A DNA stretch of 32,215 bases from Paludibacteraceae bacterium. GTDB lineage: Bacteria; Bacteroidota; Bacteroidia; Bacteroidales; Paludibacteraceae. The notes under the pieces were generated by a model. That model was not told where the DNA came from, did not search any database, and was given only the letters and a program-made list of their open reading frames with translations. The stretch covers positions 1 to 32,215 of the forward strand of contig JAFVTU010000018.1 in NCBI GenBank assembly GCA_017503075.1. Reading direction: 5' to 3'. The number at the start of each line of letters is the position of its first letter. Position 1 is the first letter of the stretch. A program made the translations under genes and the position numbers. Below, piece by piece: positions 20,232 to 31,171 of this stretch.

Positions 20232-20260
20232 GCAGTGGTTCGGAATTTCCGAACAACTGC
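20232..20260. repeat. 29-bp palindrome with TTCGGAA core, second copy
   Basis: Arms of 14 bp with one mismatch around a central T. It nearly repeats the element at 19997-20025 and directly precedes palindromic element copy 3. Confidence 0.75.
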
Positions 20261-20267
20261 TTTTTGA

Positions 20268-20319
20268 CTTGCTCCTTTTTTGTTGAGTTTGCTGCTTTTT
20301 GTGAGAAAAAAGGAGCAAG
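20268..20319. repeat. Palindromic element, copy 3
   Basis: A 14-bp perfect inverted repeat (20268-20281 with 20306-20319); the loop GTTGAGTTTGCTGC... matches that of copy 4. It forms the start of the first unit of a 300-bp duplication. Confidence 0.85.
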
Positions 20320-20641
20320 CTATATGTGAGTATATTAAGTATGTGTGAGTATGTGTGAGAATGTGTGGGTGTGTATAAATGTATGGGTATGTATAAATAC
20401 GTGTGGGTGTGAATAAATATGTATGAGTGTGTATAAATGTGTATGGGTGTGTATGATTTGTTTCTTTGTGTGGAGATGGAGGGATTATATCATATCAATC
20501 AGCAGTTGTCGGAGTTGTTGTCTTGTATCTTGTTGGATGATGAGGTGATGTTTCTTGTCATATTGGAGAGAAAAGTGCAAATTAGTTGTATTTTCTGTGG
20601 CTTTATATGTGGTGGATGCGGTTTTTATGATTTCATCTTTG

Positions 20642-20698
20642 GCTTGCTCCTTTTTTTTGTTGAGTTTGCTGCTTTTTTGTGAGAAAAAAGGAGCAAGC
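20642..20698. repeat. Palindromic element, copy 4
   Basis: A 15-bp perfect inverted repeat (20642-20656 with 20684-20698). It forms the start of the second unit of the 300-bp duplication. Confidence 0.85.
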
Positions 20699-21021
20699 TA
20701 TGTGTGAGTATATTAAGTATGTGTGAGTATGTGTGAGTATGTGTGGGTGTGTATAAATGTATGGGTATGTATAAATATGTGTGGGTGTGAATAAATATGT
20801 ATGAGTGTGTATAAATGTGTATGGGTATGTGTGATTTGTTTCTTTGTGTGGAGATGGAGGGATTATATCATATCTATCAGCAGTTGTTTGAGTTTCTTGT
20901 TGGATGATGAGGTGTATGTTTCTTGTCATATTGGAGAGAAAAGTGGATATGAATTGGTTTTTATGGGGTATGGGGGAGTTGGGTTTTAGAGAGTAATAAG
21001 AGAATTGGAAACTCTAAAAAC

Positions 21022-21937: not shown

Positions 21938-23638
21938 TTATTTATTAGGCTCTATCATTTCTTCTAATATGCCCTTTAATTTTTCGCGCGATTCTGTATT
22001 TATAAGTAGGGACATCAACTCATCATCTAACTTTATACCATAGTATGCTTCTCTAACACCTCCCATATCATTTGTAGATTTGTATATTTTACCAGGAAAA
22101 GGTAACAATTTATAAAAGGGTTCATCTTCCATATAATGCAGAACATTCAACAAACCATCTGATACATACTTGTTAAAAATGACAGACTGCCAAGAGTATC
22201 TTTGCCATATACATTCATACCATCGTTCTATGTTGAGATTAAAAGAAATCATTAAGTTCGGAATATCATCTACATTGAGTTTATTCCAATTTTGATTGGC
22301 TATTAAATCAATAATTGCTAACATTAACATTGGTTTATAAGGTGTTTTTGTTCCACGAATCGTTGATCGTTTCATATTCCGAAAAAGGTCAATATAATAA
22401 TCCAATGATGACAAAGTTTCCTTTTTTGTTTTTTCAATTAATGGTTGACAAAGTTTTTTATTTACGACTCGATCCCTAAGAGATTTTTTATCTTTGAAAT
22501 TGCGTGATATATTTTGTATTATATCTGTATAATTATCAGTACCATCTTCTTTTTTATAATAAAACGGTTTAATAGAAACACAATTCTTATGTTCAAAAAG
22601 TGTATTTAGCAATGTGCGATCTGAATTTCCACACGAATGCCCCATGATATATATTTGATAAGGTTTAGAGTCTATAAATTGAAGTAATTCTCGATAGTTA
22701 CTTGCTTCTAAATACTTAATAGATTTTACATTACGGAGATATTCATTGTCATTTTTGTTGGATATTTCTTTGTAACAATCATCTAATTCATCTCCATAAC
22801 CTAAAATCATTGAGTTTAAACTTTTAAGGTCCCCATGAATGTGATTTATGCGAAAATGTCTTCCGAATTTAGGTAAGTATGTATCAGCAGTATGTGTGTA
22901 GTTAAAATTTACTAACATTATGGAATTGGGTAACAAGGCAGGAGTATCATTGTTCCGCATCTCCCATATACTTTCATCTTTTTCTTGAAGATCTTTGATG
23001 TGATCCTCTACGTCATATTTATGAATAGATTTATACATTGAAAGTTCATTTATATAACTACCTATAACATCGAATATCTTATTATATTCCATGCGCTCTG
23101 CTATTAAATCTCGAAATGTTTGTTTTGCTTCAACTGCAATATCATGTTTCTTTATTGATTCATATATTTTCTTCTTAATACTATCATTTATTTCTATTTT
23201 ATGGTTATTATTATTCAATGTAAGATATTCATATAGTTTTTGAGTCAACACATCCAATTGTTTATTTAGTTCTTCATGTGTAACTCTTGGATTCTCTTTT
23301 ATTGACTCACATAGCAACTTATAATAAACACCTTCTATATCTACCCAATTGCTATGGTTGTAGATTTTCATTATATCTTCAAGTAAAGCATAGAGAGTAA
23401 ATTTGATAATAGATTGTTCTTGCAAAATGCATACAAAGTCATATCCTTCTAAACTATAATCTTCAGGGATATTCTTCAATATTTCTATTTTGCATAATCC
23501 ATCGTCAATAATTGTTTCCGAGCGAACAAATAATTTATTCATCCATTTCTCCCAATACCAATTAATGAAATCTGCATAGCTTGTTTTTAAGCCATGTGCG
23601 AGGTCAAAGCCGTTTCCTATTAAAACAATTCTATTCAT
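21938..23638 (-). CDS. AbiH-like abortive infection protein fused to an SBD-like domain
   Basis: A 566-residue protein. Residues 1-405 resemble AbiH, a phage abortive-infection family. It starts MNRIVLIGNGFDLAHGLKTS with a glycine-rich nucleotide-binding-like strand; later come MLVNFNYTHTADTYLP (about 241-256), HIHGDLKSLNSMILGYGDE (266-284) and IYIMGHSCGNSDRTLLN (329-345). Residues about 410-560 form a second domain with TPYKPMLMLAIIDLI (432-446), EPFYKLLPFPGKIY and YGIKLDDELMSLLI. This resembles the domain found in front of HNH nucleases, which in ScoMcrA binds phosphorothioated DNA. No HNH motif follows. The fusion suggests a sensor for modified or foreign DNA coupled to the AbiH effector; this is inference. 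Confidence 0.65.
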   Translation of the reverse strand: MNRIVLIGNGFDLAHGLKTSYADFINWYWEKWMNKLFVRSETIIDDGLCKIEILKNIPEDYSLEGYDFVCILQEQSIIKFTLYALLEDIMKIYNHSNWVDIEGVYYKLLCESIKENPRVTHEELNKQLDVLTQKLYEYLTLNNNNHKIEINDSIKKKIYESIKKHDIAVEAKQTFRDLIAERMEYNKIFDVIGSYINELSMYKSIHKYDVEDHIKDLQEKDESIWEMRNNDTPALLPNSIMLVNFNYTHTADTYLPKFGRHFRINHIHGDLKSLNSMILGYGDELDDCYKEISNKNDNEYLRNVKSIKYLEASNYRELLQFIDSKPYQIYIMGHSCGNSDRTLLNTLFEHKNCVSIKPFYYKKEDGTDNYTDIIQNISRNFKDKKSLRDRVVNKKLCQPLIEKTKKETLSSLDYYIDLFRNMKRSTIRGTKTPYKPMLMLAIIDLIANQNWNKLNVDDIPNLMISFNLNIERWYECIWQRYSWQSVIFNKYVSDGLLNVLHYMEDEPFYKLLPFPGKIYKSTNDMGGVREAYYGIKLDDELMSLLINTESREKLKGILEEMIEPNK

Positions 23639-23787
23639 AGTTTATTGTGGTTATTTGTTATTTTTCTATCACGAAAAAATATATATGTTGTGGAGAAATT
23701 AATAGGTGTACACAGCCATAAACCTACATAAGATTTTGCCCCAGAATGTCTGGATGGCTCTATTTTACAGAACACCTCATAAATATA

Positions 23788-24783
23788 TCATTTCTTAGTG
23801 ACATTCTTTTCTAGAGCCTGCAATCTTTTTACAATTTGCTTTAATTCAAATAAAAGTTTTTTCTGTATATCTGGATTCATTTCTGATATTTTCTCATCAA
23901 AGTCTGCATCACTTATAAATTCTTTAAACTTATTAAATTTCACCCAGGCTTCATCTATTTGACCAGACTCTTTTAATTCTGTATAAGCATCCTGTAAGGA
24001 AACTTTACCTTCTTTATATTGCCTAACAAGACGTTTAGCAGTTTTTGATTTATGTTTAACTAACTCACCAATCTTTCTTATGTCCGCAGCTTCGTGAATA
24101 TTACCTTTTTTTATTTGAGTCGCTACAATGTTTTCTAATTCTGGATCATCTTCAACAGCATGTTTAATTGATCTATTTTTTAAGAATTCTTCATAATAAC
24201 TCCATTTAGCTGGCGCTAAATCATTTTGTTCTATCATGTAATTATACACCCGAACATAATTCTTGGCTAAGGTTATCGATATACCCATTTTATTTGCCAA
24301 TTCATCTATTGGATATTTAGTGTCACGAATACCTCGAAGAATAAAACCAGCTTGTTCGAAAGGACTCCAATCCTTTCTTCCAACAATATGATATTGTCCT
24401 AAAATAGTTAATATTGTATCTTGGTCAATATCACTTGGAAGTATTTTACATTTTACTTTTCCCCATTTATTGATATCCTTACGTGCTAATTTTCTATATG
24501 CAGCTAGCCGACTATTTCCTTCTAACACCACAAAATCACCATCTCGTACAATAAGAGGATCTATTAGTCCAACTGACTCTATAGACTGTCGGAGCTGTTT
24601 AACATGCTCCATATTTAGCATGTAGTCTTCTATTTGCTCTTGAGTAGGATTTTCATCTGTACTGTGCATCATGCTATACACACGAGGATTATCCTCATAA
24701 AACTTTAGTTCTATTACAGACAACTCACCTTCTCTTACTAGAACACGTTTATTTGCGATTTCTAAATATGATGTTGAAGCCAT
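23788..24783 (-). CDS. ParB-like protein 1
   Basis: 331 residues. The N-terminal ParB/Srx-type domain (about 20-115) has YEDNPRVYSMM, LRQSIESVGLIDPLIVRDG and the motif LEGNSRLAAYRKL (87-99) in place of the GERR box of chromosomal ParB. RKDWSPFEQAGFILRG follows, then a helix-turn-helix around IDELANKMGISITLAKNYVR (160-179). The C-terminal half is helical and charged. Such non-segregation ParB-like proteins occur in phages and DNA-modification loci, where they may act as nucleotide-dependent enzymes or clamps. It starts five bases after the helicase stop. A paralogue lies at 26679-27686. Confidence 0.75.
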   Translation of the reverse strand: MASTSYLEIANKRVLVREGELSVIELKFYEDNPRVYSMMHSTDENPTQEQIEDYMLNMEHVKQLRQSIESVGLIDPLIVRDGDFVVLEGNSRLAAYRKLARKDINKWGKVKCKILPSDIDQDTILTILGQYHIVGRKDWSPFEQAGFILRGIRDTKYPIDELANKMGISITLAKNYVRVYNYMIEQNDLAPAKWSYYEEFLKNRSIKHAVEDDPELENIVATQIKKGNIHEAADIRKIGELVKHKSKTAKRLVRQYKEGKVSLQDAYTELKESGQIDEAWVKFNKFKEFISDADFDEKISEMNPDIQKKLLFELKQIVKRLQALEKNVTKK

Positions 24784-24788
24784 AATTA

Positions 24789-26258
24789 TTATTGTTTAAG
24801 AATTTCCTTAATTAGATCTCCATAACTATAGTCCATGATATCTTTGTATTGGGCTAATTGGTAATCACCTTGAGCTAAAAAAGCGGCATTTTGTTTAGCT
24901 TGCAATAATTTATCAACCCAAATATCAATGCTATCTTTAATCATTAAGTTATATATGTAACATGTTTTTGTTTGCGATATTCGATGAATACGATCTTGAG
25001 CCTGAAGATAATCATCTAGATTAAATCCTCGATCATAAAAAATGACATTATTCGCTATAGTGAGTGTTAGTCCTTCTTTCGCTGATTGTGGGGTAGCAAA
25101 TAAAACCCAACTCTCTCCTCCCTTGAAAATTTCCACTGATTTATTACGTGCTTCTATTGTCATTCCACCATGTATCTTGGTTGGTGAATATTTTTTATAT
25201 TTTTTACAAAAATAATCTACATTTTCTATAAAAGAAGACCAAACAATAACACGTTCTTTACGATTTATAATAATTTCCTCTAGTAACTTATCCAAGGAAA
25301 TCTCTTTGCCAGAAAAAGAGCCATACAAGTCATTTATCAACCTCGGATTAGATGTGATTTGAATTAAACGTAACAACCGTTTTAAACAAGCCTCCGAATT
25401 ATCCAATATTACTTCATTATCCTTCTCTACGAGTAACTCCATCTCGGATTTCACTTGTTCGTACATTTGTTGTTGTTGGATTTCAAATTCGGCAACGACA
25501 TTGCTATACACCTTATTCGGCAACGAAATTATACCACTCTTTTTTGTTTCACGTACAGCAAAATTACGTATTTTCTCATATATTGATGCAACTGTGCTTT
25601 CAAAAAAATCTCTTATTGAATCATTTTCAGTCATATCGTTTGATAAATCCGTATTTGATTTAAATGCGGCAAAATTTTCGCCTAAACTAACTCCAAAATC
25701 TAAAAAGTAAATTTGGGCCCATATGTCATAGGGACGATTAGCCACAGGCGTTCCTGTCATAATAACTCTTTTTTTAAAAAGAGGAGCCAAATAGAAAAAA
25801 TCTTTCGTTAATTTCGAATCAGGATTTTTAATTTTAGTCGACTCGTCTATTATGATTGCAGTATTTCTTGATTTGGCAAACAACTCAACACGCATTCTCT
25901 CACTCGAAATAGTTTCAAAATTAGTAATAACAATACGTGCTGGACTATTAAAAATAAAATAATTATCTCTCTTATTCGAGTTTAAAGTAGATGATTTTAT
26001 AAAAGTATGAATAGCCAATTCATTTTCCCAATTCTTCACTAATTGTTTTTTTGTAACAATTAGAACAGTATCTATATCACACTCTTGTAGCCAATATAAT
26101 AAAAGGTCTATTGCTATTTTTGTTTTTCCTAATCCTTGTTCATGAAAAATAGCAGCGTAATCCAAATCTTTTATTGCATCAAATGCATCTCGTTGATATG
26201 CAAAAGCATCCAACTTGGCAGAAAGATTTAAACTGTATTTATAGATTAATTTTCCCAT
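24789..26258 (-). CDS. SNF2-family helicase
   Basis: A 489-residue superfamily 2 ATPase. Motif I is HEQGLGKTKIAI (39-50), motif II IIDES (136-140) and motif III MTGTP (167-171). The second RecA domain has IVWSSFIENVDYF, then SAKEGLTLTIANNVIFYD and motif VI QAQDRIHRISQ (419-429), which is the SNF2 form. It is compact and has no extra accessory domains. It follows the small nuclease gene with a one-base gap, and the two probably work together, as phage VRR-NUC/SNF2 pairs do. The substrate is presumably DNA. Confidence 0.9.
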   Translation of the reverse strand: MGKLIYKYSLNLSAKLDAFAYQRDAFDAIKDLDYAAIFHEQGLGKTKIAIDLLLYWLQECDIDTVLIVTKKQLVKNWENELAIHTFIKSSTLNSNKRDNYFIFNSPARIVITNFETISSERMRVELFAKSRNTAIIIDESTKIKNPDSKLTKDFFYLAPLFKKRVIMTGTPVANRPYDIWAQIYFLDFGVSLGENFAAFKSNTDLSNDMTENDSIRDFFESTVASIYEKIRNFAVRETKKSGIISLPNKVYSNVVAEFEIQQQQMYEQVKSEMELLVEKDNEVILDNSEACLKRLLRLIQITSNPRLINDLYGSFSGKEISLDKLLEEIIINRKERVIVWSSFIENVDYFCKKYKKYSPTKIHGGMTIEARNKSVEIFKGGESWVLFATPQSAKEGLTLTIANNVIFYDRGFNLDDYLQAQDRIHRISQTKTCYIYNLMIKDSIDIWVDKLLQAKQNAAFLAQGDYQLAQYKDIMDYSYGDLIKEILKQ

Positions 26259-26259
26259 A

Positions 26260-26625
26260 TTATATTGTTAAAACAGGAATACCTGCTTCGCTTAATACGA
26301 TAACAGTTGTTGTAAAATTATTTATACGTTTAATGTATTTCAATAAATTCTTAAACATAACAGAAGCCGTCCATGAACTGGATACAATTAAATACGCTTT
26401 GCCATGAAAAAATTGACATTCTTGTAAATATGATATATATTGATTCCTACTATGTTTGGTATCTATATCATTTATTGTCTTTGCTTCTCCTATGATTAAT
26501 ACATCAGCATTTCTGTAATAAACGTCTGGATGAAAATTGTTAGTCACCTTAGGAGGTTTGCATATACTGTCAGGAGTATCAACCAAAATGTATTCTGGTT
26601 GTACAAAAGAAATACACTCACACAT
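26260..26625 (-). CDS. Small PD-(D/E)xK-type nuclease
   Basis: 121 residues from the first ATG. The active-site signature is HPDV (D34) followed by DVLIIGEAKTINDID (E47, K49) and a later SRNQYISYLQEC helix. This is the PD-(D/E)xK layout of VRR-NUC and Holliday-resolvase-like enzymes. The frame stays open for 19 more codons upstream to a TGA that overlaps the ParB-like gene's end, and that stretch reads like protein (AESEKHIEYVRRIHSYM) but has no ATG/GTG/TTG. So the real start may be a non-standard codon near 26682, or the product depends on the upstream gene's translation. It is adjacent to the helicase. Confidence 0.65.
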   Translation of the reverse strand: MCECISFVQPEYILVDTPDSICKPPKVTNNFHPDVYYRNADVLIIGEAKTINDIDTKHSRNQYISYLQECQFFHGKAYLIVSSSWTASVMFKNLLKYIKRINNFTTTVIVLSEAGIPVLTI

Positions 26626-26678
26626 ATAACTATGAATGCGTCTTACATACTCAATATGTTTTTCAGACTCGGCGATAT

Positions 26679-27686
26679 CTATTCAATATTAATATCTTTA
26701 AGTAAAGATTCTAATTCGGTATATAAATCTCCTAGGTAGTTTTTCTTTCGCTGAGTTACCTCAGTTTCGCAACTCCGTAATTCCTTCAATTCCTCATACG
26801 GTATGTTGCGCAACTTGGTTATAAGAGTACGACATAATTCCTCGTATGGTATATCCTTGAGGCTTATTGTTTCCTTTGAAGCTGTGTGAAGTTTTAGAAT
26901 AGCACTAGAAATATTTGTTTTTAAAAACTCTTTTTTAGCTGCTTCGTCAGAAAGTATTTCTGGGAGCCAGCGAACATTTTGTGCAGTATCTATATTGCGA
27001 TTGCAAACCCATATTGCAAAGTCTTTCTCAGTATACCCGTGTGCATTCAACGCATTTTTAATGCTCCTATTTTGAAGCTCTGAAAATTTAGAAAACTCTC
27101 TAACATCAGGTTTATCTCCATCTAATAATGGGATATAATATGTTAGCATGTCGTTATATGCACTTATTAACTTTAAAATTTCACCTTTCTTTCCACCACA
27201 ATAATCTACAATCGTATTTAAAGGTAATCCCTCTTCATGATATAGCTTATTTAAGTATTTTGCTTTAGAATATGGGTCCCAATCTCTAGGTCCAACTAAG
27301 TGAGATTGCAGACGTATAGCATCAATTTCTATCTTATTTAGATTTTCATAAACGATACATCTTATGTGTTCCCAGTTAGCATCCTTTGTTTTGGAATAAA
27401 AATCCTTGTATATTTGTAAACGTGTATTTCCTTCTATTACAATATAAACATCATCCGAAATATGGTTCACAATTATTGGATGAATGATGCCTTTATGTAC
27501 TCTTATCGATTCTCGCAATGAACTAAATGATGTAGAAGTCACGGAAGAACCGCTGTCATTCAATGCAAGTGCAATACCTTCCGCAGTAACATTGTCTCCA
27601 AACATTTCTAAATATTGGCAAATGCGTGGGTTATTTAAGTCTAACTGTAATTGACTGATTGGCAATATTTGATATGAACATTTCAT
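26679..27686 (-). CDS. ParB-like protein 2
   Basis: 335 residues, a distant paralogue of the protein at 23788-24783. The N-terminal domain shows LDLNNPRICQYLEMFG, LRESIRVHKGIIHPIIVNH and IVIEGNTRLQIYKDF (82-96). LVGPRDWDPYSKAKYLNKLY follows, matching the GRKDWSPFEQA segment of the other copy, and then a helix-turn-helix-like region LNTIVDYCGGKKGEILKLIS. The C-terminal 150 residues are unrelated to the other copy. It lies 17 bases after the radical SAM gene and abuts the nuclease gene, consistent with one operon. Confidence 0.75.
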   Translation of the reverse strand: MKCSYQILPISQLQLDLNNPRICQYLEMFGDNVTAEGIALALNDSGSSVTSTSFSSLRESIRVHKGIIHPIIVNHISDDVYIVIEGNTRLQIYKDFYSKTKDANWEHIRCIVYENLNKIEIDAIRLQSHLVGPRDWDPYSKAKYLNKLYHEEGLPLNTIVDYCGGKKGEILKLISAYNDMLTYYIPLLDGDKPDVREFSKFSELQNRSIKNALNAHGYTEKDFAIWVCNRNIDTAQNVRWLPEILSDEAAKKEFLKTNISSAILKLHTASKETISLKDIPYEELCRTLITKLRNIPYEELKELRSCETEVTQRKKNYLGDLYTELESLLKDINIE

Positions 27687-27703
27687 GGTATTATTAATTG
27701 ATG

Positions 27704-29170
27704 TTAATTTTTATTTTTTAAGTCTTCAAATCTTAAATCAAAATACTTAGCTGCGATCTCAGGATGTTCTCTCTCAAAGTCGAGCATTGCCTGATAGCAT
27801 GCACAATATTTCTTCTTGCGTAATCCATAGAGATCTGTTCTCAAAATAGCATTATTTTGTCCTGCTGTTTCTTTATTAAATCCCTGATGATACTCTTCAT
27901 TTCGTACACAATATTGACGGAAACTCATTTTCTTAAAGAATCCTGGCTGATTACACCATCTTGCGAGTTGAGTATACAATGTCTTATATTTGGAATCCTT
28001 GTAAGACTCATAGCGCATAATATAAGGCAAGCAACCATATTCCATCAATATCTTAATACGATAGAATGTTCCCTCAATATCTCTTTCGTCTTGACTATCA
28101 TATGCAACAAGAACATAAAGTTTTGTTGATTTGTTACAGTATTTGCGCCAAACATCTAATCCCTTAACGGTTTGTTCTACTTGTTTCTTTTCCTCTGGAT
28201 CATCTAGTTTGTAGTGGTCAAAAGCAAATATATAATCTCCGCAGTATTTGGAATTCATGAGTATCTGAGCTTTCTCCTCTGTCATTAGACGAATATCCAT
28301 ACCCTGTCTAAATTGAAAAGCTTTACCTGTTGCTTGTAATTGCTCTATAACGCTATGGAAAACTTGATATGGTGCAGCCATGATATTATCATCCCACAAA
28401 TAAATCTTACTGCGCGATTTATCTAAGAACTCGCTAACAGGAGAACAAGGTACAACTTTCTTGAGTAGGCGATTGACACAAAAGCCACATTGACGAATAC
28501 ATCCTCTAGTGGTAAAACCAATCGAATAACTCAAATAATCACCCCACTTACGTTTTTTTAATTTTTCATCTCCATTAGTTTGTATTTCGATATATTCATC
28601 ATATAGATGGTAGTCTGGCATGTGATGCTCCACTATATGTGGTAAGTTAGGACCGTCGATCTCAAAGAAACCAGTTCCACCATATACAATTTTACCTTTT
28701 TCTATCAGCTTTTGAACAATGGGGTGTATTTTCGTAAATTTGAATACACGAGATAATACGATAAGATCATAGTTTGTATAGCCATTCCCTTTTATCTCTA
28801 TTTCATCATAACTGCAAAGCAAACGAACGTCATGATTGAATCCTTTGCAGTATGCAGACATTTTGAGTAGTGCAAGATTAGGATGACGAGTGCCATTATC
28901 TAACAGATCTGCATCAATCAAACCTATTCTATAGGTTCGTTTACTATTTTCTATCAGAGTGCAGCACTCTTCATTAAAACCAATATTTGATTGAAGTTTC
29001 AACATGGTATTCTGTTCTATCCATTGGGTAGTATTTGAATCTGGCAAGATATTCCAAATACTTGTGTTCTTAACTTTAGACTTTAATGCGTTAAACTTTA
29101 GATTAATTTGAGATAAGACATTTGTTTCGTACTCTTCAAATGGAATTAGTAATGTTTGTGCCGTGTTCAT
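27704..29170 (-). CDS. Phage-type radical SAM enzyme with B12-binding-like N-terminus
   Basis: 488 residues. A helical start (1-75) is followed by a Rossmann-like region: RIGLIDADLLDNGTRHPNLA (81-100), YDLIVLSRVFKFTK and YGGTGFFE. The radical SAM core has the 4Fe-4S motif GCIRQCGFC with C224, C228 and C231, then IYLWDDNIMAAP, FQFRQGMDIRLMTEEKA and LYVLVAYDSQDERD. A C-terminal segment includes LARWCNQPGFFKKMSFRQYC. This arrangement is familiar from an uncharacterised radical SAM family common in phages and mobile elements of gut bacteria; no substrate is known. It is the first gene of the ParB-nuclease-helicase set, with a possible promoter just upstream. Confidence 0.8.
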   Translation of the reverse strand: MNTAQTLLIPFEEYETNVLSQINLKFNALKSKVKNTSIWNILPDSNTTQWIEQNTMLKLQSNIGFNEECCTLIENSKRTYRIGLIDADLLDNGTRHPNLALLKMSAYCKGFNHDVRLLCSYDEIEIKGNGYTNYDLIVLSRVFKFTKIHPIVQKLIEKGKIVYGGTGFFEIDGPNLPHIVEHHMPDYHLYDEYIEIQTNGDEKLKKRKWGDYLSYSIGFTTRGCIRQCGFCVNRLLKKVVPCSPVSEFLDKSRSKIYLWDDNIMAAPYQVFHSVIEQLQATGKAFQFRQGMDIRLMTEEKAQILMNSKYCGDYIFAFDHYKLDDPEEKKQVEQTVKGLDVWRKYCNKSTKLYVLVAYDSQDERDIEGTFYRIKILMEYGCLPYIMRYESYKDSKYKTLYTQLARWCNQPGFFKKMSFRQYCVRNEEYHQGFNKETAGQNNAILRTDLYGLRKKKYCACYQAMLDFEREHPEIAAKYFDLRFEDLKNKN

Positions 29171-29294: not shown

Positions 29295-30089
29295 TTACAC
29301 TCCCCTAAATATATTTTCCTTATGATATGCTAGATAGTCGCGATTAGGGGCGTGCTCTACTGGCATTAATATTTTATTTCCTGCAATACTACCAAAGTGT
29401 GTATCAAAATAGTCCTTTGTTTCGTATTCTAACAACGCAGATGACAGGGTAATCGTATAATCGTCAGGAGAAATTGTAATCAGTCCTCTGTCAAATGCCT
29501 TGTCATACAATGCAGACAAACAGATTCCGTTCTCTGGAGCCAGACGTTGCTCTGCTGTACTATCTGCCCAAGGAATAATATGGCTTGCTATCAACAGATC
29601 TGGCACATTAATTCCTGTGATCGCACACTTATTCTCATAGTTCTGCAAAATCATTGTGCGGAACACAGATTGATTAACTCTTTGCTTGATGACCGTCTCT
29701 TTCTCCTTGCCAACCAAAAGCGTCTGAGGGATATTCAAACTCTCCTCTATTGACTTCTGCATCAATTCTGCTCTAATCTGTTGTGCTTCAAAGAAAAGGC
29801 GTTCTTTATCATTGGCATACTCATCCCAAATTGGTTTACAAACAGGGATACCTGCTGGCATACCTGTACGACCAGAATTGATAATATACGGGTCACATGC
29901 TGCAAAGTTTACCAGACGCAACGCTGCGGAGTTACTCGTTCTACCCAACAAACGAGCTAATTCCATTACTTCGGGCGTTCCATGATTTAGTCGTCCGAAT
30001 GGCAATTGGAAATAAACGCTAAGAGTTAGAATCAACTCGTTGCGTGTCCATAAACGTCTTGCTTGTTGTATTTGTTGTCCTTCTGGCAT
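29295..30089 (-). CDS. HNH endonuclease (HNH_2 type)
   Basis: 264 residues from the ATG at 30089; the frame is open to 30143 but that would overlap the upstream gene, and MPEGQQIQQARRLWTRNEL is a natural start. The N-terminal part (LWTRNELILTLSVYFQLPFG, then GRTSNSAALRLVNFAACDP) is a winged-helix-like DNA-binding module. The C-terminal part has the HNH fold: CAITGINVPDLLIASHIIPW, PENGICLSALYDKAFDRG and a final HKENIFRG. This family cleaves DNA and is found in restriction and defence loci. It follows the small membrane-protein gene. The motif is intact, so activity is likely. Confidence 0.85.
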   Translation of the reverse strand: MPEGQQIQQARRLWTRNELILTLSVYFQLPFGRLNHGTPEVMELARLLGRTSNSAALRLVNFAACDPYIINSGRTGMPAGIPVCKPIWDEYANDKERLFFEAQQIRAELMQKSIEESLNIPQTLLVGKEKETVIKQRVNQSVFRTMILQNYENKCAITGINVPDLLIASHIIPWADSTAEQRLAPENGICLSALYDKAFDRGLITISPDDYTITLSSALLEYETKDYFDTHFGSIAGNKILMPVEHAPNRDYLAYHKENIFRGV

Positions 30090-30106
30090 CTTTCTTTTTC
30101 CTTCTG

Positions 30107-30538
30107 TTATATCAGGCTTACTTTCAATATGATATATGTACATGAAGCAAGAATAGCAATCACATAAAAAATGATACCGCAGATAGAATAATACTTAAAT
30201 CGTTTCACTAGTTTGTTTACATTATGGGAATAGTCTTCTCCTCGCATAACAGCAGTCAAGTGGTGCTGGAGACTAATTCCGTCTGCGATTATCCCTCTAT
30301 ATCGACCAAATAAACTACTTATAAAAAATAACACACTTATTGCATTTGCCACTACTGCACTCACATAAACCCAACCGCACACCTGAGAAGAAAAATTGTC
30401 AGGATGTAAAGCAACCAACACTCCGAAAGTAGTAGCTGTTAATCCTGCAAAGAATCGTCTCAAAGAGTTCTTCTCTGTAATTAATGCTTCTGCTAATTCA
30501 GAGAGTGATTTGTCTGGTAATATCGGGGGTGTAATCAT
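30107..30538 (-). CDS. Small membrane protein with three to four helices, unknown
   Basis: 143 residues. Hydrophobic segments cover FFAGLTATTFGVLVAL, VCGWVYVSAVVANAISVLFF and YYSICGIIFYVIAILASCTY; a basic/aromatic loop (SLFGRYRGIIADGIS) and a helix with HHLTAVMRGEDYSHNVNKL lie between. No family is recognised. It sits in a compact cassette: SLATT-like gene, 39-codon ORF, this gene, HNH gene. It may be a membrane effector or partner; this rests on context only. Confidence 0.6.
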   Translation of the reverse strand: MITPPILPDKSLSELAEALITEKNSLRRFFAGLTATTFGVLVALHPDNFSSQVCGWVYVSAVVANAISVLFFISSLFGRYRGIIADGISLQHHLTAVMRGEDYSHNVNKLVKRFKYYSICGIIFYVIAILASCTYIILKVSLI

Positions 30539-30546
30539 ATATTATG

Positions 30547-30666
30547 TTACTCGTTTTTATTTCCTGTACTGGTAGTCGGGAACTTAAATATAGGTGCCTT
30601 TTTCTCGTTTTCAATACGATGTGGCATTTGATAAAAACGTCCATCTGGATTTTGTTGTGTTGACAT
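30547..30666 (-). CDS. 39-residue ORF between two membrane-protein genes
   Basis: A short frame starting MSTQQNPDGRFYQMPHRIEN, hydrophilic and basic, ending GNKNE. It starts one base after the stop of the SLATT-like gene and ends eight bases before the next start, so it fills the gap exactly, which favours real coding. No similarity is recognised. Confidence 0.5.
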   Translation of the reverse strand: MSTQQNPDGRFYQMPHRIENEKKAPIFKFPTTSTGNKNE

Positions 30667-30667
30667 A

Positions 30668-31171
30668 TTATTCAGTTATTTTGTATTTTTGAATCAAACT
30701 TTCTGCGGTTATTTCTTGTGCCTTGTCTATAATTTTTTGAGAGTATTCAAAATCATCTCCATCATCAAAAAACTCATTCTCAGTTATTCGCTTTCTCAAT
30801 GAATTCAATAAATCCGTAGCACGAGTCGTAGTTATCTCTTCTCTCTTAACTAAATTCCATAATTCAAGTAATTCTAAAAATAGAAGTTCTTGAGTATAAC
30901 AACGCTTATTTAATGTGTGTACATGTTTCGTAAAACCCATTAGCGGTTTTATAGCAAATAGAAACTGCGACACAGCTATGATAGTTGCATTAACTATAGC
31001 ATACTTATCTTCTAGAATCCACATCGTAGCACTACCAAAAGAAGAAATAGCAACTGCCCAATTATATATATTATCATATTTTCTATACTGTTTGACAGCT
31101 AATGTCATGCAATTAACATTAAACAAACAATTTTTTATTTCCTCTTTTATTTCTTCTTCAATTTGTTTCAT
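30668..31171 (-). CDS. SLATT-like two-helix membrane protein
   Basis: 167 residues. A charged N-terminal helix (MKQIEEEIKEEIKNCLFNVN) is followed by a basic/aromatic stretch (AVKQYRKYDNIYNWA). Two adjacent hydrophobic helices come next (VAISSFGSATMWIL and AIVNATIIAVSQFLFAI), then a long helical tail with HTLNKRCYTQELLFLELLEL. This layout resembles the SLATT family, predicted pore-forming effectors in nucleotide-signal defence systems. No cyclase or SLOG gene is beside it, so the assignment is by shape rather than by motif. A degenerate -7 box (TATCTTCG) lies just upstream. Confidence 0.5.
   Translation of the reverse strand: MKQIEEEIKEEIKNCLFNVNCMTLAVKQYRKYDNIYNWAVAISSFGSATMWILEDKYAIVNATIIAVSQFLFAIKPLMGFTKHVHTLNKRCYTQELLFLELLELWNLVKREEITTTRATDLLNSLRKRITENEFFDDGDDFEYSQKIIDKAQEITAESLIQKYKITE

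Follow-up and report, generated by a model that had tools for sequence, protein, structure and literature searches.

We analyzed a window of 32,215 bases, which is a whole contig from the 2.06 Mb genome assembly of a Paludibacteraceae bacterium, and focused on six genes on its minus strand that begin with a radical S-adenosylmethionine (SAM) enzyme, here termed rSAM1. The original prediction had described these genes, from the sequence of the window, as a candidate undescribed system of defense or DNA modification. A check of the open reading frames (ORFs) recovered all six, close together and at the predicted positions:

27704..29170, minus strand: radical SAM enzyme rSAM1 of the PHROG 9298 type; first gene and proposed DNA-marking enzyme
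26679..27686, minus strand: ParB-like protein 1 (ParB1), with an EGNTR motif; ParB-type PHROG and weak NCBIfam matches, below the Pfam cut-off
26260..26625, minus strand: small PD-(D/E)xK-type nuclease with a (G/A)EAK motif; no Pfam family over the cut-off
24789..26258, minus strand: SNF2-type DNA translocase/helicase (PF00176), in which the Walker A, DE box and arginine motifs are conserved
23788..24783, minus strand: ParB-like protein 2 (ParB2), a diverged paralogue of ParB1 (phmmer against ParB1, 1.7e-17)
21938..23638, minus strand: AbiH domain (Pfam) with a C-terminal domain (approximately residues 395–566); accessory, in a variable sixth slot

In the order of transcription, the intergenic gaps were 17 (rSAM1–ParB1), 53 (ParB1–nuclease), 1 (nuclease–SNF2), 5 (SNF2–ParB2) and 149 bases (ParB2–AbiH), three of the five being 17 bases or less, as had been predicted for most of them. 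The gap of 53 bases narrows to 2 when the nuclease is taken to begin at the N-terminus common to its relatives: this frame is open upstream to position 26676, and, as read by eye, the relatives' N-terminus is found in frame at 26626–26676 (minus strand), before the first ATG and behind a non-standard start codon.

Both the AbiH domain (93.6 bits; cut-off, 30.9) and the SNF2 protein (96.6 bits to PF00176; cut-off, 24.9) passed in Pfam. The ParB-like proteins scored under the ParB_N cut-off of 26.3 (19.3 bits for ParB1 and 21.1 bits for ParB2) and were supported by ParB-type PHROG and weak NCBIfam matches, and rSAM1, which had no Pfam or NCBIfam match, was recognized through PHROG 9298 ('radical SAM domain protein', 7.7e-44). 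The label SBD, which had been attached to the AbiH protein, was not confirmed for its C-terminus, where phmmer gave a single unrelated PDB match (E 0.74) and there was no NCBIfam match.

We then compared the catalytic motifs among relatives. The E, G, N and R of EGNxR were kept in all 14 aligned ParB1 sequences, as were the motor residues K45, D138, E139, R423, R426 and Q429 in 14 of 14 SNF2 sequences; SNF2 was the most conserved protein of the set (50–69% identity in 13 relatives). The nuclease, for which no family match exceeded any cut-off, carried (G/A)EAK in 19 of 19 sequences (18 GEAK and one AEAK), and an upstream D was kept in all three sequences aligned, in agreement with a putative D...(E)xK active site assigned from sequence. 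The CxxxCxxC cluster motif was present in 76 of 76 aligned radical SAM relatives and in 134 of 136 rSAM ORFs; L066 and L068, with ORFs 192 and 104 amino acids long, were the two exceptions. rSAM1 had the radical SAM barrel fold and resembled MgmA, CysS, TsrM and OxsB in fold; on this likeness, it could at most be a putative B12-dependent (cobalamin-binding) enzyme. A search of PDB sequences with the rSAM profile gave none at E ≤ 0.1.

We looked for relatives of the radical SAM enzyme in genomes and plasmids as well as in phages and viral contigs. The exact order rSAM–ParB1–nuclease–SNF2–ParB2 was observed in 13 of 15 other loci with this module, including locus L017 from another species of the same genus (rSAM, 38% identity) and viral contig L023 (65% identity); of the two exceptions, L073 runs into the contig end behind SNF2, and L090 has its rSAM gene downstream of ParB2. 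In all 15 loci, the genes overlapped or were separated by gaps of 34 bases or less. The neighborhood is conserved, and the set is not confined to intact prophages as replication genes, two points on which the original prediction had been made to depend. We found no AbiH in the 15 other ParB-type loci or in seven further module loci, within the flanks fetched, and AbiH is therefore not core: the unit comprises five genes together with a sixth slot whose content varies. The proposed undescribed system is thus supported in part, by context, namely the conserved gene order and the interchange of the rSAM enzyme's partners with known restriction modules (below), with AbiH as an accessory. Relatives of AbiH occurred in 6 of 100 other related genomes, with the alignment stopping at residue 409 of 566, and none of these six genomes was among the initial radical SAM genome matches; AbiH was rejected as a core component on both grounds, its absence from related module loci and the existence elsewhere of relatives whose alignment leaves out the C-terminus. 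This C-terminus resembles the ends of the slot-6 proteins of L081 (8e-9) and L146 (2e-6) in a pairwise test, which may tie the window protein loosely to slot 6. Elsewhere, most slot-6 proteins have a winged-helix domain, termed S6, either alone or fused to other C-termini, and in L103 it holds an unrelated protein of 455 amino acids.

The genome scan used an alignment (A2) of five enzymes, three from beside the ParB module, one from beside DndFGH and one from beside a NERD helicase. From the 110 relatives that it returned, we retained the best 80 in order of similarity to the window enzyme, and the following fractions apply to those. Modules were named by neighbor clustering and annotation of cluster representatives; many loci are contigs of metagenome-assembled genomes, and some are near-copies (e.g. 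L107/L111 and L108/L126). One of four modules was located near the enzyme in 68 of 80 loci: PbeA/PbeC in 26, a DISARM-like set in 21, ParB–nuclease–SNF2–ParB in 13 and DndFGH in 8, with none in 12, one of which (L071) is a ParB-type locus truncated by the contig end. Two modules were never observed at one locus. The largest class, Pbe, was not represented among the query enzymes. For all 136 rSAM loci, the corresponding counts were 26 (Pbe), 22 (DISARM-like), 15 (ParB), 9 (DndFGH) and 64 (none). The DISARM-like set consists of a NERD helicase (20 of 22 loci), a protein of ~790 amino acids (18) and relatives of DrmA (16) and DrmB (14), and several of these contigs end within the set. The ~790-amino-acid protein (690–812 amino acids; e.g. 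L104:9684-12050) was found in 18 loci, every one of them labeled DISARM-like; Pfam gave no match for two of the copies and PADLOC none for one.

On a quick tree of the enzymes (90 rows, omitting rSAM ORFs below 330 amino acids, namely L080 and L101, and most viral rows), the six labels, including 'none' and 'phage', required 25 changes, compared with a mean of 54.5 after shuffling. Changes forced by well-supported branches numbered 7 each for the Pbe, DISARM-like and ParB labels and 6 for DndFGH. Therefore, partners have been exchanged repeatedly around a single rSAM enzyme family.

We further searched for known marking genes in 31 carrier genomes (9 of 9 rSAM–DndFGH, 7 of 26 Pbe, 4 of 22 DISARM-like and 11 of 16 ParB-type, including the window). 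DndC over the cut-off was found in none of the 31, the window genome included; the one weak match scored 28.7 bits (G505). As a control, the DndFGH locus L288, which lacks rSAM, has a DndC of 454 bits, over the cut-off, with DndD- and DndE-type proteins adjoining, below their cut-offs. DndH loci lacking rSAM were too few to survey: one DndH model matched 2 of 395 genomes (E ≤ 1e-60), and the two loci found were L288, with DndCDE adjoining, and L289, which has a PbeA-like fragment and no match to rSAM1 or to a second family, rSAM2, in the fetched stretch. A methyltransferase search of the fetched flanks, based on two home-made profiles and two motifs and restricted to ORFs of at least 180 amino acids, gave candidates near 5 of 72 module loci (ParB, 2/15; Pbe, 3/26; DndFGH, 0/9; DISARM-like, 0/22). 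No methyltransferase family was detected with Pfam in 20 window proteins (10 at the locus and 10 elsewhere), the rest of the genome lying outside this search. Because no DndC passed its cut-off in the genomes tested and methyltransferase candidates were few, the radical SAM enzyme is the only marking candidate recognized, among the enzyme kinds sought, in 67 of the 72 module loci.

The S6 domain, of predicted winged-helix type, was fused to rSAM or adjoined it in 43 of the 72 module loci and may read DNA. S6 was also fused to an S24 (LexA-type) peptidase domain (L023:13321-14487 and L146:8074-9771) and to sigma-70-like regions (L081:15201-18257), which suggests a regulatory role besides DNA reading. 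One S6 query each against plasmids and phages gave no match, and none was found in the 52 loci from viruses, phages, plasmids or distant genomes that lie outside the module set. Against PDB sequences, there were two weak, unrelated matches only (E 0.035 and 0.39). A domain named MTaX1 in the part of PMC10853773 consulted may correspond to S6, and no sequence of it was found for comparison.

Scans based on SNF2 or ParB1, in which rSAM1 was not the bait, revealed seven new module loci (L150, L151, L152, L198, L199, L200 and L285), and a radical SAM gene was close by in all seven. In L285 (G959:C1), this gene is rSAM1, the SNF2 gene is interrupted early, no ParB2 was recognized, and transposase-like genes, named by eye, adjoin; in L199, no nuclease ORF was called. 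The other six pair the module with rSAM2 and a GHKL-type ATPase, a pair observed at the following loci:

L150:11510-15033: rSAM2 next to GHKL-type ATPase
L152:5566-8783: rSAM2 next to GHKL-type ATPase
L151, L198-L200, L206-L211 and L214: rSAM2 next to GHKL-type ATPase

In L214, the pair lies beside DrmA, DrmB and a NERD-helicase match. Because rSAM2 adjoins both the ParB module and DrmA/DrmB/NERD helicase, the two radical SAM families share module types, and rSAM2 with the GHKL ATPase is possibly a second marking pair. The ParB module is rare: it was found in 1 of 393 genomes of an order sample scanned with the SNF2 profile (the window itself) and in 3 of 247 genomes of the family of the L075 genome. 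Of 43 SNF2 relatives, we set aside 39 as distant phage helicases (≤30% identity) when counting the module.

A low G+C content marks the stretch around the locus. G+C content was 28–35% at 21–29 kb of the window, 35–39% at 29–32 kb and 37–52% at 1–20 kb, and the lower value over the locus compared with 1–20 kb suggests an acquired island; elsewhere on the contig, the genes are ordinary chromosomal ones, such as those for transketolase, seryl-tRNA synthetase and topoisomerase. Upstream of the operon (29295-31171, minus strand) are genes for an HNH protein (PADLOC HNH, 1.1e-83; 62.6 bits to a phosphorothioate-DNA restriction family, below the cut-off of 180) and for two small, apparently membrane-bound proteins, as judged by eye; the three are perhaps another defense unit. 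Near one island end, a GT-rich element of ~280–360 bases is present in two copies (20238-20918). Its matches within the window genome are on this contig only, a stretch 79–81% identical occurs near the island of another species (L017:311-648), and the element is a possible insertion hotspot.

Among the phage and viral loci (L010–L068), some phage members of the rSAM family were near methyltransferase genes of the N6/N4 type (cluster in 16 loci) or C5 type (cluster in 15 loci), each cluster having one annotated member, and near SNF2 and 3′-phosphoadenosine 5′-phosphosulfate (PAPS)-reductase genes. Such neighbors would fit a role in phage DNA protection.

Because the partners of rSAM include modules known from modification-based systems and no known marking genes were recognized in most of the sets tested, we propose, with a probability of roughly two in three, that rSAM1 installs a self-mark on DNA and that the paired module attacks DNA lacking it. 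In the first step, rSAM1, in many relatives with a fused or nearby S6, would place a chemical mark on host DNA. ParB1–nuclease–SNF2–ParB2 would be the restriction module matching this mark: the ParB-like proteins would load onto DNA, the SNF2 motor would travel along or remodel it, and the PD-(D/E)xK nuclease would cleave DNA without the mark, with a presumed anti-phage effect. rSAM1 would then be a general marking enzyme whose restriction partner is swapped among the ParB module, DndFGH, PbeA/PbeC and DISARM-like sets, and the AbiH protein with its C-terminal domain would perhaps be an added sensor or a suicide, last-resort effector. With somewhat less confidence, although still on the favorable side of even, we consider that the mark is neither methyltransferase methylation nor phosphorothioation but a general self-mark serving four restriction machineries, that rSAM1 is the missing partner of some solitary DndFGH and PbeABCD systems, and that the ParB module is undescribed.

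Several observations weigh against this proposal. Neither the window ORFs nor, in a search that had no positive control, the window genome gave an S6 match, and S6 was likewise not found in 20 of 22 DISARM-like and 6 of 9 DndFGH loci; it therefore cannot be the sole reader. Moreover, Foldseek gave nothing for S6 at E ≤ 0.001, and its resemblance to FokI was below the tool's reliable level. A module was absent from 12 of 80 genome loci and, among viral loci that contain an rSAM ORF, from 44 of 45; the distant matches L019 and L020 likewise had none beside them. In L090, the rSAM gene follows the module rather than leading it. Five module loci do have methyltransferase candidates. The A2 enzymes were known beforehand to lie beside ParB, DndFGH and NERD-helicase sets, and the Pbe class alone arose unprompted. 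According to the part of PMC10853773 consulted, DndFGH acts alone, and Pbe is no replacement for DndFGH. Finally, six of the seven new ParB-module loci pair with rSAM2 and the GHKL ATPase rather than with rSAM1.

The last point bears on the strongest rival, namely that marking itself involves ParB and SNF2: rSAM1, the ParB-like proteins and SNF2 would form one modification complex, in which the enzyme is directed by ParB and SNF2, and the effector or reader would come from slot 6 (AbiH or S6 fusions). The pairing in these six loci, which had no Pbe, Dnd or Drm query match, means that the ParB module may belong to marking; furthermore, a phage DNA methyltransferase in L010 carries a ParB_N-like region (22.0 bits, below the cut-off of 26.3). 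However, 55 of the 68 module loci have rSAM1 with another module in place of the ParB module, two modules never occurring together, and the ParB module holds its own conserved nuclease motif. We regard a single modification complex as unlikely, although it is better placed than the other alternatives.

Two further explanations appear improbable to a similar degree. In the first, rSAM1 would make an antiviral small molecule or altered nucleotide, and its neighbors would be separate defense genes of an island; in prokaryotes, the viperins, themselves radical SAM enzymes, produce modified nucleotides (PMC12926258, in part), and the low-G+C stretch does contain other possible defense genes. In the second, rSAM1 would modify RNA or a partner protein and thereby control neighboring effectors, as is suggested by nearest solved folds that include the protein methylase MgmA, the aminoglycoside enzyme AprD4 and RNA-bound MiaB. 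In MiaB/RimO methylthiotransferases, N-domain cysteines ligate a second (auxiliary) cluster. A MiaB-like column of this kind was absent from residues 76–215 of rSAM1, where the best column had Cys in 30 of 76 rows; no partner protein common to the four modules was found, and a predicted DNA-binding domain is fused to the enzyme. A chance neighborhood without functional unity is very improbable: defense genes do cluster in genomes, and the low G+C content (28–35% versus 37–52%) fits an island, but the five-gene order and the tight spacing recur across the other loci, and the genes are rare (1 of 395 genomes with the SNF2 profile at E ≤ 1e-80, the window; 2 of 395 with the DndH model).

If DNA marking by rSAM1 is correct, it would imply a bacterial DNA modification chemistry, a reader domain and an ATP-dependent restriction module that are all new, and we see a real chance of a new DNA modification at such loci. 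rSAM1 could supply several antiviral systems with the self-marking enzyme that they seemed to lack. Because partners have been exchanged repeatedly, self-marking and attack appear to be separable functions, recombined in the course of evolution. In the published accounts consulted in part, it is a puzzle that some DndFGH and Pbe systems occur without phosphorothioate genes, and an rSAM partner makes part of this puzzle testable in cultured strains; carriers of rSAM–DndFGH pairs include Clostridium hydrogeniformans DSM 21757 (L084) and Prevotella sp. tc2-28 (L118).

These accounts allow a comparison with known systems, citations here referring to portions of each paper. DndFGH and PbeABCD are partners of phosphorothioation, and Pbe/CxC also occurs with cytosine methylases (PMC6459918, PMC10853773). 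Of 553 PbeAC systems, 320 lack dndCD, and other modification partners have been proposed (PMC6459918); similarly, DndFGH is commonly decoupled from modification genes (PMC10853773). The term 'radical SAM' refers to DndC or the phosphorothioation reaction in PMC10853773 and PMC9239176, to viperins in PMC12926258 and to a nitrilase cluster in PMC9716671. Within the portions of open-access literature consulted, subscription papers and preprints being outside its scope, we found neither a link between a radical SAM enzyme and DndFGH, Pbe, DISARM or the ParB module nor a description of the ParB–nuclease–SNF2–ParB module.

As in DndABCDE–DndFGH, a DndFGH module follows rSAM1 in nine loci (L018 by PADLOC and the others by clustering). 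In contrast, all nine genomes lack DndC over the cut-off, and the rSAM gene occupies the place held by DndCDE in the control locus. With DndCDEA–PbeABCD and the CxC ABC-ATPase–DndE systems, 26 loci share PbeA and PbeC, and 21 of these also a protein of ~150 amino acids, whereas the partner here is rSAM with S6 rather than the phosphorothioation genes and methylases named in PMC6459918 and PMC10853773. DISARM combines methylation with nucleases (PMC12926258). The DISARM-like loci share its DrmA- and DrmB-type proteins, but a radical SAM enzyme, NERD helicase and ~790-amino-acid protein are found instead of a methyltransferase candidate. Among 10 window proteins, there was no DndFGH, PbeA, PbeC, DrmA or DrmB, nor the ZorA or ZorB of Zorya, although the window SNF2 matches the helicase part of ZorD. 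The AbiH domain in slot 6 recalls AbiH abortive infection, and the window protein differs by its extra C-terminal domain, which resembles those of two slot-6 proteins. The phage PHROG 9298 genes belong to the same enzyme family, and some lie near methyltransferase, ParB-like, SNF2 and PAPS-reductase genes, but they are shorter (~360 amino acids), S6 was not found with them, and 44 of 45 viral loci have no restriction module. Type I, III and IIG restriction–modification systems share only the proposed logic, a marking enzyme with a reader domain and an ATP-driven nuclease complex; the window differs in lacking a methyltransferase family among its 20 proteins examined in Pfam and in having separate ParB-like subunits. 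On the features tested, the window locus falls outside Dnd, Pbe, DISARM, Zorya and methyltransferase-based restriction–modification, but its proposed logic is restriction–modification-like.

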